Source: Phycisphaerae bacterium (GTDB taxonomy: Bacteria > Planctomycetota > Phycisphaerae > UBA1845). From it: a stretch of DNA of 64,000 nucleotides. Positions within the stretch are counted from its first letter, which is position 1. Each line of letters starts with the position of its first letter. The translations under genes were made by a program, and so were the position numbers. Below, one piece after another: positions 48,726-53,331 of this stretch. Below the pieces are notes generated by a model. The model had not been told where the DNA came from. It saw only the letters and a program-made list of their open reading frames with translations, and made no database searches. Location: positions 1-64,000 of the forward strand of contig JAJDDP010000162.1 of NCBI GenBank assembly GCA_029260235.1, given 5' to 3'.

Positions 48726-50146
48726 GCGGCAGGCTCGATCTGGAAGGCCCGCTGGCGGTACAAGTGCTCAAAAAGATTGCCCTCGTGCGGCTGATCCCAG
48801 CTGAGACGATAGGTCGGGATCGCCCCTATGTTCAGCCGATCAATGTCGGGTGATGCCATCAGTGCGTCGGCAAAGGCATGATGCTGAGTGATGGCTGTTA
48901 CTACCAGGGAAGGGCCGATGGCGTCGGGCATCTCGGCTACGGGGCACTCGACGACACTAGCAAAAGGGAATAGGAATTCGCGGTTTGACAAAGCGTGGTC
49001 GCGGTCGTCGCAGTGGATGACCGTCGGCAAGAGGTAGGACACCCGTCCGTTTTCGACCAGTCGACTGCTGCCACGATGCTTCTCAGTGAGATCAGTTGCG
49101 CCCTGCCCGGAAAGTCCTTGATTGATGGCTGCATTGATACTCTGGGCGACGGCCGGGTTGGCAAAGGCGGCTAATTCTGCATGAGGGTCGTCGGCTGGGA
49201 GTGCTTGAACTGCTGCGAACTTCAGGGCGAGGGCATCAGCGATCTCGCGAGCGTGTGATGGCGTCCAGACGGCTGATGCGTTGATGCAAGAACGCCCGCC
49301 GTTGGCCAAGATGGACGAAGCGATGACCTCGACATGCTGCTCCCAGTTTGCGGCGGCATCTTCATCCAGCAGGACCTTGCTGTACCCAGGCCCGTGGAGC
49401 TCGACGTTTGGATCATCGCGGTAGGGGCGGGTGGTGGCTCTGCCGCCAAAGAGCATCGAACGATCAACGTTCTGCAGCAATGCCCCGGCGCCGGCGTGGC
49501 CTGTCGGGTAGAAGCCCATCGCTTCTGGCGGAATGCCAGCCGCAGCGAAGGCTTGTATGAGGCGGTAGGGTGTCCACGGTTCCTCGCGACCGGGTTTTAG
49601 CACGATGGGCGCCTTGAGTGCGATGGCTGGGACCCACAGTGAGTGAACGCCGGGCGAATTGCTGGGCAGCACGGCTCCGAAGATTCGTCCCGCTCGGTAG
49701 AAGCTCAACGTGCGATCATCATCGCGGCCATGGCCCTTATCGAGAATGGACAAGTCGAATCCTCGGGTAAGGCCCGCGATCACCTTGTCAATGTCATCCA
49801 ACACGCTGTGAATCTTGGCGGCGTTGCTTCGGCAATAGGTGATTGGCATGCCAGTGGTGGCTGAGAGTTGGCCGATGTAGTCATCAAATGATTGGGAGTC
49901 CTCGCCCAAAGGCAGATCGGCCGACATGAATAAAGCGGCTGCCTTCTTGGTCATAGCCATCAATTCTGCCAGCGAGAAACTTTCCAGGACGGTATCGTCC
50001 ATGCGCTTGATATCGCGAGACACCAAGCCGGAGTTGGCTAGGCTAAGTTGGGCAATCGGTTCGCCAGTGAGGTGATGCACCAACTCGGTCTTCTCAACGC
50101 TCTCGTACGGTTGACCCTGTCTCAAGATCGGTATGTGTAACATCAA
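48722..50146 (-). CDS. Aldehyde dehydrogenase-superfamily protein, possibly acyl-CoA reductase
   Basis: 474 residues. Fold motifs: FGAVLPSNSPGVHSLWVPAI (Asn of the active site), LKAPIVLKPGREEPWTP (NAD(P)-binding Lys), VELHGPGYSKVLLDEDAA in the place of the ELGG region, and the catalytic Cys in NGGRSCINASAVW. The altered ELGG region and the partners upstream (adenylate-forming enzyme) and downstream (alcohol dehydrogenase) suggest it reduces an activated acyl group to aldehyde, as LuxC does, rather than oxidising aldehydes. It overlaps both neighbours by four bases. Confidence 0.8.
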   Translation of the reverse strand: MMLHIPILRQGQPYESVEKTELVHHLTGEPIAQLSLANSGLVSRDIKRMDDTVLESFSLAELMAMTKKAAALFMSADLPLGEDSQSFDDYIGQLSATTGMPITYCRSNAAKIHSVLDDIDKVIAGLTRGFDLSILDKGHGRDDDRTLSFYRAGRIFGAVLPSNSPGVHSLWVPAIALKAPIVLKPGREEPWTPYRLIQAFAAAGIPPEAMGFYPTGHAGAGALLQNVDRSMLFGGRATTRPYRDDPNVELHGPGYSKVLLDEDAAANWEQHVEVIASSILANGGRSCINASAVWTPSHAREIADALALKFAAVQALPADDPHAELAAFANPAVAQSINAAINQGLSGQGATDLTEKHRGSSRLVENGRVSYLLPTVIHCDDRDHALSNREFLFPFASVVECPVAEMPDAIGPSLVVTAITQHHAFADALMASPDIDRLNIGAIPTYRLSWDQPHEGNLFEHLYRQRAFQIEPAA

Positions 50147-51237
50147 TACACCCCTTCAACCACCGGCGTGGCGAAACCTGAAAACGGTCTGACGTTGGCG
50201 ACTCCATCCCATGGGTACGCTTGGCACGGCTTGGTGCGCTCAGCTTCGTCGCGCTCCAGGAACCGGGGCATGAAGAATTCCTTGGTTAAGGTGGTCAATC
50301 TTGTTCTTCCGGTTTGGCCGTAGTCTGCGATTCTCTTGTAATCATCCGGATCTACGACCTCGACCATCGCCCGCGGCTGGGGTGGGTGGTAGATCACGTC
50401 GTAGTTGTCGGCTGGGTCGAACGGTTTGTGGCAGGCTAAGCCCATCAGCGTGTTGCCGTAGGTGGGCACGAATTCGCTGACGCCTTCGAGCAATTCTTCA
50501 CGGGCGAAGCGGTGAAATTGCGGGGTCATTTGAGTTCCGCCACAGAAGACGCCGCCGATGCCAGCCTTGGGGATCGAGATTCGTTCGGCCAGGGCTTCGA
50601 GCAACTTGGGCGTGGTAAACAGGCATCGGATATTGTCGTGGGCACGCAGCAGGGTCAGCCCCTGATTGATGATGTGGTCCTTGTACTCCAATGCTTCGCG
50701 CACCCGGCCTTGCTTGGTGAGCTTAACGACCCATCGCGGATCAAGATCGACGTGGAAGGAAATACCGCCACGATGCTGGGCGAGGTGTTCGACGGCGAGG
50801 CGGAGCCTTCGAGGGCCGGTTGGCCCTAGCATCAGCCAGTCGGCGCCCTTGGGGAAATACTCGTCGTTCAGCGTTTGGCTGAACATTTCGTAGTCGATGC
50901 GAAAGTCACCGATGTTGATGCGGCTCTTGGGCACGCCGGTGCTGCCGCCGGTTTCAAACACATAGATGGGTTTGTCAGCCAGCGCCTTGGGCACCCATCG
51001 GCGAACCGGTCCTCCTCGAAGCCACTCGTCCTCGAAGCCGTCGAACTTGTCCAGGTCGGCGTAGGATTTGATTTCCTTCCGCGGATCCCAGGGCAAGCCA
51101 GCTGCGTATTCCAACCAAAACGGGCAACCGCTGGCAGGATCGAAGTGCCAGGCTACCATCGCGCGGGTTTGTTCATCCAGCTTGGCTTTTGCTTCTGTGA
51201 TCTGCTGATCGGTTGGTTCGTTTTGTTCTTTGGTCAT
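50143..51237 (-). CDS. Adenylate-forming (ANL) enzyme, LuxE/EhpF-like
   Basis: 364 residues. The adenylation P-loop is FETGGSTGVPKSR (about 94-106); the aromatic motif VPTYGNTLMG replaces the usual YGxTE, and a DPDDYKRIADYGQTGRTRLT segment stands for the hinge region. It lacks a full C-terminal lid domain, like LuxE acyl-protein synthetases and the EhpF group. It probably activates a carboxylic acid as the acyl-AMP for the reductase encoded next. First gene of the coupled trio; a GxxExxY cassette lies just upstream. Confidence 0.75.
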   Translation of the reverse strand: MTKEQNEPTDQQITEAKAKLDEQTRAMVAWHFDPASGCPFWLEYAAGLPWDPRKEIKSYADLDKFDGFEDEWLRGGPVRRWVPKALADKPIYVFETGGSTGVPKSRINIGDFRIDYEMFSQTLNDEYFPKGADWLMLGPTGPRRLRLAVEHLAQHRGGISFHVDLDPRWVVKLTKQGRVREALEYKDHIINQGLTLLRAHDNIRCLFTTPKLLEALAERISIPKAGIGGVFCGGTQMTPQFHRFAREELLEGVSEFVPTYGNTLMGLACHKPFDPADNYDVIYHPPQPRAMVEVVDPDDYKRIADYGQTGRTRLTTLTKEFFMPRFLERDEAERTKPCQAYPWDGVANVRPFSGFATPVVEGVY

Positions 51238-51290
51238 GACGGCGATCTTCTCTTGCTTGGGGTTGTTCAGAAACAGCCAAAGACACAGCG

Positions 51291-51327
51291 AAAGGCTGAA
51301 CCACTAAGACACGAAGACACTAAGGAA
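51291..51327 (+). repeat. Left inverted repeat of the GxxExxY cassette
   Basis: Begins AAAGGCTGAACCAC and ends GACACTAAGGAA. It matches the reverse complement of 51816-51852 at 33 of 37 positions, with no gap. Confidence 0.85.
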
Positions 51328-51361
51328 TCTCGTTTTCTCGTTCAGCGACCCCTCTGAGGCA

Positions 51362-51805
51362 TCATAGTGCAAACCTTTGAATTCCGTCTTTGATTAGCGG
51401 TACGTTGAAGTTGATCAAGAAGCCCAAGCGCTTGTTGGCCAATCGCAGATACGACAACAGCTGGGCTTGGTGGACTGCTTGGATCGTTGCTACGGCCTTG
51501 AGTTCTACAATGATGCTGTTTTCTACCAGTAAGTCGATACGCAGGCCTTCTTCAAACTGAATCCCATCGTACACGATTGGCAAAGCCACTTGTCGCTGAA
51601 CAGAAAGCTGACGCTTCTCGCATTCATAACCCAAGCAGCGCTCATAGACACTTTCCAAAAGTCCAGGCCCCAGTGCCTTGTGGACAGTGTAGGCGGCATC
51701 GACGACCACTTTAGAAATCGAGTTCATCTCATCCGAAATCGGCCTTTGGGCTCCCCCGATGTTCGTGACGGCTGCCTCCTGCACCGAAGAATGAGTATCT
51801 ACCAT
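51362..51805 (-). CDS. GxxExxY protein
   Basis: 147 residues from the ATG at 51805; a later methionine at residue 27 is also possible. The family motif is GPGLLESVYERCLGYE; next come VPIV-type LPIVYDGIQFEEGLRIDLLV, VENSIIVELKAVATIQ and LGFLINFNVPLIKDGIQRFA. The D...ELK pattern is that of a PD-(D/E)XK nuclease fold. The role of the family is unknown to me. It is enclosed by inverted repeats and interrupts a minus-strand gene cluster. Confidence 0.88.
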   Translation of the reverse strand: MVDTHSSVQEAAVTNIGGAQRPISDEMNSISKVVVDAAYTVHKALGPGLLESVYERCLGYECEKRQLSVQRQVALPIVYDGIQFEEGLRIDLLVENSIIVELKAVATIQAVHQAQLLSYLRLANKRLGFLINFNVPLIKDGIQRFAL

Positions 51806-51815
51806 AGCGGGTGCT

Positions 51816-51852
51816 TTTCTTAGTGTCTTGGTGCCTTCGTGGTTCAGCCTTT
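51816..51852 (-). repeat. Right inverted repeat of the GxxExxY cassette
   Basis: Reverse-complement partner of 51291-51327, 33 of 37 identical. It ends nine bases before the stop codon of the PQQ-propeller gene. Confidence 0.85.
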
Positions 51853-51861
51853 GCTTAGCCT

Positions 51862-53331
51862 TTACTTTGTAGGTGCGGCGATAGCGAACAGGGCCTTGCG
51901 GTTGGTGATGTACAAGGTGCCGTTGGCTACCACCGGCGTGGTGTAGACGGCGTTCATCATGTCGTAGGTGCCGATTTCTTCGAGCTTCTTGCCATGCTTC
52001 AGGACCACAACCTCTCCTTCTTCGTCGCCGAGCAGGACTTTGCCATCCACGACAAACGGTGAGCCCCAGATAGCGGCGAAGGTGTCGTACTTCCAATGCT
52101 GCTTGCCGGTCTTTACATCGAGGCAATAGAGGAAGCCGCTTAGGTCAGATGCGTAGCAGAGTCCGTCAGCAATGGCCACCGTAGACATTGACCGATGGTA
52201 TGCCTCGTCGCCGAAGTGCCAGACGCTTCCGGTCTCGGTGATGTCGCCGCGCTTGGTTCCATCAATGCAGAAGAGGTGGCCTGGGCCTTCGCCGTGCTCG
52301 GGATCCTGCCCAACGCAGAGGAAGATTTTGTTGTCGTAGATGACCGGTGTAGCGATGATGTTGTTCTTGGTTCCACGGCCGCCGAGTACCCACTTTGTTC
52401 CCTTGGGGTTCAAGTCAAATTTCCAGAGCAGCTTGCCGGTCTTTGGCTCGAAAGAATAACACCAGCCGTCGCCGCCGGGCATGATCACCTGGGGAACATT
52501 GCCGATGATGCCGTAGGCCGGAGATGCCCATTGGCCGTGCAGAATGTTCTCGCCGGGCAAATCTGATTCCCAGGCAATTTCACCCGTCTTCTTATTCACC
52601 GCGATGAATGAGGCTGCATCGGGGACGGGAAGGTTCAGATGGCCCTCGTCAACCCCGGTTGACGTCAACACGAAGATCAGGTCTCCACCCGGGACCGGTG
52701 ACGAGGTGGCTAGATTATGTGGAAAGGAGCCGAACTCCTCGATCATGTCGAGTACCCAGACATAATCGCCATCCTGTTTCTCTTTGTACTTTTCATCCTT
52801 GAAGGGGCCGTCATTTTCGCCATCGAGGAAGCCTTCGGTGTCGGCACAGACCAGCTCGCAGCGATTGCTGACGTACCACATGCGATTCCCCTCGACGACT
52901 GGCGAAGAGCAGATACCCTGCTCAGGCCAATCGTTGACCCTGCCGGTGGGCAGCTTGTCGTGCGTTGCTTGCCAGAGAAGTTTGCCCGTCTTTTCGTCCA
53001 GGCAAACGATGCAGCCCTTGTCCCCTTTGATGTTCGGGCGGAGCGTGCCACCGTTGTTGGTGCCGATGAATATCTTACCATCGACCACGACGGGGTTGCC
53101 GTAGGTTTGCGAACCCAAGGGCGCAATCCACTTGATGTTTTTCTTCGAGGGGACATCCCATTCGGATGGAATCCCTTTGGCATCGGAGACCATGTTGCGA
53201 TCTGCGGATCCGCCCCACATAGGCCAATCGCCGACCTTCGGGCCTCGAGGATCGCCAGCCTCGGCGGCTGTGGTCCAGAAGCCCAGAATTGCCAAACCCA
53301 AGACAGTATCAATCCGTCGCCTATTGCTCAT
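51862..53331 (-). CDS. Secreted PQQ-like beta-propeller protein
   Basis: 489 residues with a signal peptide ending near TTAAEAGDP. Repeated blades follow, each with a Trp-docking pattern such as VDGKIFIGTNNGGTLRP, CLDEKTGKLLWQATHDKL, VVEGNRMWYVSN and FEPKTGKLLWKFDLNP. These define a PQQ-type eight-blade propeller, but the PQQ and calcium ligands of true quinoprotein dehydrogenases are not evident, so it may be a binding or scaffold protein in the periplasm. Its start overlaps the end of the second propeller gene by 11 bases. Confidence 0.82.
   Translation of the reverse strand: MSNRRRIDTVLGLAILGFWTTAAEAGDPRGPKVGDWPMWGGSADRNMVSDAKGIPSEWDVPSKKNIKWIAPLGSQTYGNPVVVDGKIFIGTNNGGTLRPNIKGDKGCIVCLDEKTGKLLWQATHDKLPTGRVNDWPEQGICSSPVVEGNRMWYVSNRCELVCADTEGFLDGENDGPFKDEKYKEKQDGDYVWVLDMIEEFGSFPHNLATSSPVPGGDLIFVLTSTGVDEGHLNLPVPDAASFIAVNKKTGEIAWESDLPGENILHGQWASPAYGIIGNVPQVIMPGGDGWCYSFEPKTGKLLWKFDLNPKGTKWVLGGRGTKNNIIATPVIYDNKIFLCVGQDPEHGEGPGHLFCIDGTKRGDITETGSVWHFGDEAYHRSMSTVAIADGLCYASDLSGFLYCLDVKTGKQHWKYDTFAAIWGSPFVVDGKVLLGDEEGEVVVLKHGKKLEEIGTYDMMNAVYTTPVVANGTLYITNRKALFAIAAPTK

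Follow-up and report, generated by a model that had tools for sequence, protein, structure and literature searches.

A 562-bp cassette of a Phycisphaerae bacterium, in which one PD-(D/E)XK nuclease gene of the GxxExxY family lies between inverted arrays of short spaced units, is in our judgement (probability about 0.6) a member of a pan-bacterial, REPtron-like selfish system made up of the nuclease gene, its cognate inverted arrays and gene-free palindromes. Enzyme type predicts repeat type, an indication that the system is selfish, REP-like and so far undescribed. The common but uncharacterised GxxExxY family gains a testable substrate, and the system would account for a large body of unexplained intergenic repeats common to unrelated bacteria. 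It also suggests that an unrelated nuclease has taken up a lifestyle like that of REP-RAYT. Repeat spacing together with protein type would form a natural code, whose recognition mechanism is directly testable.

The cassette and its locus

The window is the whole stretch of 64,000 nucleotides that was analysed. Its relevant features are:

51291-51852, minus strand: whole cassette (arm, gene, arm), 562 bp, not present between the orthologues of the flanking genes in 20 relatives
51291-51327, plus strand: left inverted arm, three units at 8-bp spacing
51302-51309, 51310-51317 and 51318-51324: left-arm units CACTAAGA, CACGAAGA and CACTAAG, preceded by AAAGGCTGAAC
51816-51852, minus strand: right inverted arm, upstream of the GxxExxY gene start
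51841 down to 51819, minus strand: right-arm units CACGAAGG, CACCAAGA and CACTAAG, preceded by AAAGGCTGAAC
51362-51805, minus strand: GxxExxY gene, 147 aa, PD-(D/E)XK nuclease family
50143-51237, minus strand: flanking host gene, 364 aa, AMP-binding-like with a score below the Pfam cut-off
51862-53331, minus strand: flanking host gene, 489-aa PQQ/BamB-like beta-propeller protein

The arms are 37 nt each, complementary at 33 of 37 positions (89%), separated by 488 nt and built of three CACNAAG units at 8-bp spacing. GxxExxY is the only gene that they enclose, and profile searches found no known transposase inside. The neighbouring genes bound a gap of 624 bp (51237 to 51862), which leaves 62 bp when the 562-bp cassette is subtracted. 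A preliminary description of this DNA had reported the inverted ends, the single PD-(D/E)XK-like gene and an insertion between genes otherwise about 62 bases apart, and was right on each. It had also proposed a search for empty sites. In 20 relatives of the same family only 11-314 bp separate the orthologues of the PQQ-propeller and AMP-binding-like genes, with no GxxExxY between them, so that insertion in the window lineage is the simplest account of the cassette, which is not a fixture of this site in all relatives.

The window genome has a single GxxExxY gene and 13 three-unit arrays (up to 3 mismatches), two of them within the cassette. A reversed control pattern gave none, and the repeats, far from occurring only once, are thus present beyond chance. 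Many of the 11 arrays outside the cassette are accompanied, at a distance of up to about 120 bp, by another partial arm in convergent orientation; those with a partner arm are short palindromic solos in intergenic DNA. In genome G149 the gap orthologous to 51238-51861 (L168) holds gene-free arrays of other types (CGCAGATT, CACAGAG and CGCAAAG), and the gap between the PQQ and AMP-binding-like genes is possibly an insertion hot spot. The orthologous gap of G227 (L154) measures 844 bp and carries an unrelated insertion, possibly a nucleotidyltransferase-like gene.

Arm architecture across the GxxExxY family

We gathered 222 GxxExxY loci from relatives, members of the window's class and the best 80 nearest relatives among 84,980 species genomes. 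Across 221 loci from many phyla the arms consist of three tandem units with the core CRCNRA, which a motif scorer found at spacings of 8-8, 8-9, 9-9, 9-10 or 10-10. The two arms of a locus are almost always convergent (inward) and share the same spacing signature. Three unit types have the following consensus arms:

AAG type: tttwgC, then CACnAAGr CaCnAAGa CaCaAAG
GAG type: tTtcAC, then CgCrGAGg CgCrgAGra CgCaGAG
GAT type: tttAaC, then CaCaGATgaA CaCnGATgna CaCrGAT

With a cut-off of 46, picked after the scores were seen but with no control reaching 41, the motif scorer accepted 159 of the 221 GxxExxY loci, none of 60 random stretches (maximum 40.1) and none of 24 Y1 transposase genes. A motif-free score based on inverted identity and periodicity placed 188 of 221 loci above the 95% null. 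Inverted repeats between 400-bp flanks (E<=1e-3) were detected in 43 of 116 cases, against 2 of 186 control stretches from the same loci. Chance and assembly artefact as sources of the arms were rejected on the basis of these control stretches, the motif-free null and the scorer controls. About 20% of GxxExxY genes have no clear arms. A first typing by regular expression left 48 of 226 loci untyped, most of which are variants with a 9- or 10-bp period. Where the spacings of a typed locus are unequal, the wider one almost always comes second (8-9, 9-10) and rarely first.

The GxxExxY protein

The window protein is a clear family member, matching TIGR04256 (E=2e-43; 147.3 bits against a cut-off of 35) and, as its sole Pfam match, PF13366 (PDDEXK_3; E=2e-42; 144.6 bits against a cut-off of 22). 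Its catalytic set (E51, D91, E101-x-K103 and Q115) is intact, as are the catalytic residues of 221 of 226 GxxExxY relatives. Rates of 0.106/0.033/0.29 at the three codon positions amount to a purifying pattern. An AlphaFold2 model (mean pLDDT 87) gives a confident PD-(D/E)XK fold; among solved structures its closest matches are Cas4 SSO0001 (Z 9.4, with 100 aligned and an rmsd of 4.4) and Hjc (Z 6.9), middling Z values that indicate the fold only. Searches of PHROGs profiles gave no match and of PDB sequences no relative.

Gene-free solos and dispersed arrays

GxxExxY was found in 119 of 198 genomes of the window's class, with up to 11 matches per genome. Arrays of the 8-8 type occur in 66 of these 119 genomes against 12 of the 79 without the gene (p=9e-9; 1171 versus 78 copies), and 10-10 arrays in 43 of 119 against 8 of 79 (p=3e-5). 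Genomes with a typed 10-10 protein carry 10-10 arrays in 85% of cases, compared with 37% of the rest (p=2e-4); for 8-8 arrays the figures are 92% with the matching protein type and 51% otherwise (p=0.005). Tests of array type against the other protein type were not significant. The 12 genomes that hold 8-8 arrays and no detected GxxExxY may be drafts, of which the set contains some, or may have lost the gene.

Array matches reach 118 per genome. The solos of G043 and G136, examined at full length, are about 75-130 bp long and have convergent three-unit arms, and paired array matches in other genomes extend to about 200 bp. Flavobacterium genomes contain 4-60 arrays each and Azospirillum 73, the control giving 0. 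The repeats had been suggested as a query with and without the gene, and the search returned both gene-bearing loci and gene-free solos, in the window genome and in others. The three-unit spaced architecture, its generality in the family and the type-specific solos go beyond the preliminary description. In G136 two near-identical stretches of about 1.3 kb (L281 and L282) lie at different chromosomal places, each with the same solo.

Protein type and repeat type

The association was mapped on the protein tree for 92 loci of the window's class, the confidently typed subset. Spacing requires 28 changes, compared with 50 under free shuffling and 42.6 under shuffling confined to host families; the corresponding figures for unit type are 18, 45 and 37. 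In each test 0 of 500 shuffles reached the observed value. Among window-like proteins from over a dozen phyla, 61 of 63 carry 8-8 arrays. It is the protein tree, and not host taxonomy, that repeat type tracks. A C-terminal marker at position 134 is G in 24 of 25 GAT-type proteins and mostly N in the AAG and GAG types.

Linkage alone, the arms and gene being inherited as one block, explains part of this co-evolution, and gene conversion among copies may help to keep the arms alike. At an orthologous Flavobacterium locus, however, unit positions 1, 3, 5, 6 and 7 are nearly fixed (C.C.AAG) in both arms while positions 2, 4 and 8 vary, a constraint which shows that the arms are also under selection, beyond linkage in one mobile block. 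At the free positions, agreement between the two arms is no better than chance (0.34 versus 0.39 shuffled), so the constraint acts on each double-stranded array and not on hairpin pairing.

Mobility and long residence

Similarity ends at the arm edges both between paralogues in one genome (L127/L185 and L139/L221) and between copies in different deltaproteobacteria (L076/L110 and L036/L096). Two species carry a gene-bearing element at the groEL-dnaJ site and two congeners do not, and G173 seems to lack two of the solos that its congener G136 has. Neither a target-site duplication nor a fresh transposition event was found; with species-level sampling the closest empty sites are only about 70-90% identical, which puts exact junctions out of reach. 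At one orthologous intergenic site G136 has a 10-10 solo (L286) and G173 an 8-8 solo (L316), a difference that suggests either a preference for the site or the replacement of one element by another.

Long residence is possible as well, since one GxxExxY copy is orthologous and at a fixed site across Flavobacterium. The genomes of this genus have 4-11 GxxExxY matches each, decayed ones among them, and such numerous and decayed copies are typical of selfish turnover.

The preliminary description had taken the locus for a small mobile cassette, mobilised either in trans or by its own GxxExxY protein. Mobility is supported by the empty sites, by paralogues alike only within the arms and by the solos. 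The identity of the mover is a matter of likelihood: mobilisation by the nuclease itself is the likeliest mechanism, favoured by the co-evolution of protein and repeat.

Comparison with known systems

The system shares several traits with the REP/REPIN-RAYT systems (REPtrons) and TIRtrons: a nuclease gene on the chromosome is enclosed by inverted repeats, these repeats also occupy intergenic regions, nuclease types are specific to their repeats, and persistence is vertical. The RAYT protein is an HUH tyrosine transposase, and REPs are marked by a GTAG or CGTC tag (PMC3733652, PMC3686654). GxxExxY, in contrast, is a PD-(D/E)XK protein, the window protein matching only PF13366 and no Y1/HUH profile (PF01797), and its arms are three spaced CRCNRA units without GTAG or CGTC tags. 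It is therefore not a REPtron, its nuclease being unrelated and its repeats lacking REP tags; in architecture and population biology it works like one.

Cas4/RecB-type nucleases and Hjc resolvases have the closest folds and share the E, D, ExK and Q set, a motif which we take to correspond to that of GxxExxY. Unlike them, GxxExxY is smaller, has no cysteine cluster and is accompanied by no CRISPR or recombination partner within the cassette. It does not belong to Cas4: PADLOC returned only weak Cas4 matches (E=0.006), and in place of the four-cysteine Fe-S cluster the window protein has a single Cys57, semi-conserved to variable across the family. The solos resemble MITEs of DDE or HUH insertion sequences as short, non-autonomous copies bounded by inverted repeats, but their partner gene is neither a DDE nor a HUH transposase.

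Proposed mechanism and alternative explanations

GxxExxY very probably recognises the arrays, and we infer that it binds them directly. Its protomers would read double-stranded DNA. The 8-10 bp of a unit come to roughly one helical turn, a size that suggests an oligomer in which each protomer reads one unit: a trimer or other oligomer on each arm would contact three successive units, with specificity set by spacing plus unit sequence. The nuclease would cut at or near the arms, or at a junction formed by the paired arms. The excised segment might then be re-inserted elsewhere, or break repair might copy the element into other arrays; either route would mobilise elements with the gene and, acting in trans, the solos of 75-200 bp. 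To our knowledge strand joining is not an evident activity of a lone PD-(D/E)XK nuclease, which counts against this explanation, as do the lack of any target-site duplication or fresh transposition among the sites compared, the share of co-evolution due to linkage, the 8-8 arrays in 12 genomes with no detected GxxExxY, the GxxExxY genes that have no clear arms and the middling Z of the fold matches. We hold it possible, if somewhat short of probable, that these elements form a new class of mobile DNA, in which a stand-alone PD-(D/E)XK nuclease with a specificity code of spacing (8-8 to 10-10) and unit (AAG, GAG, GAT) mobilises itself and tiny non-autonomous palindromes across many phyla.

A homing variant, in which gene-free solos are cleaved by the nuclease and acquire a copy of the gene during repair, would make the solos empty homing sites rather than products of transposition. 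Gene-bearing copies do resemble solos that have a gene at their centre, and solos far outnumber genes. Homing by itself leaves the spread of solos unexplained, however, and no paired solo and gene-bearing allele was seen at one site, the groEL-dnaJ site of G055 having neither; we consider it unlikely. Slightly less credit is due to the view that GxxExxY is a resident genome-maintenance or defence nuclease, with the arrays as its genome-wide sites (self markers, or sites of recombination or processing) rather than transposons, and the adjacent arms autoregulating or licensing the gene. Vertical inheritance at one Flavobacterium site, the constrained arms, the purifying codon pattern and a chromosomal distribution (8 of 72,556 plasmid records, no phages, no confirmed viral contigs) would all suit such a role, but the patchy presence within the class, the multiple and decayed copies in each Flavobacterium genome, the many types within one genome, the empty sites and the solos of different type at one site in sister species do not.

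It is more doubtful still that the repeats are MITE-like and moved by an unrelated transposase, with GxxExxY as passenger cargo. Short, convergent, intergenic solos are what MITEs would look like, and Y1-family transposases are common in the window's class, yet none of the 24 Y1 genes has arms, only GxxExxY was seen between arms in the loci examined, repeat type goes with the GxxExxY protein both between phyla and inside host families, and array counts follow the presence and type of GxxExxY. As for RNA elements or bidirectional terminators selected as hairpins, their palindromic form and intergenic position, often between co-directional genes, are all that arms and solos have to recommend this account. 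The periodic double-stranded core is conserved and the pairing between arms is not, which at the Flavobacterium locus speaks against an RNA hairpin; Rfam has no match at the window locus or at the solos, and the association with one protein family would go unexplained, so that this account can hardly be correct.

Occurrence on other replicons and in the literature

Several of the plasmid copies are on very large replicons, and single-gene insertions such as fabD-GxxExxY-fabG are among them. Phages gave no GxxExxY match and viral contigs no confirmed relative, and both were rejected as vehicles on this ground. Two open-access papers retrieved by family name mention GxxExxY, both in passing, and flanking repeats do not appear in those passages; searches by repeat string gave nothing relevant, short strings matching unrelated text and longer strings none. 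In Sphingomonas parapaucimobilis (NZ_CP155749; L353) GxxExxY lies between fabD and fabG and has only degenerate arrays upstream.
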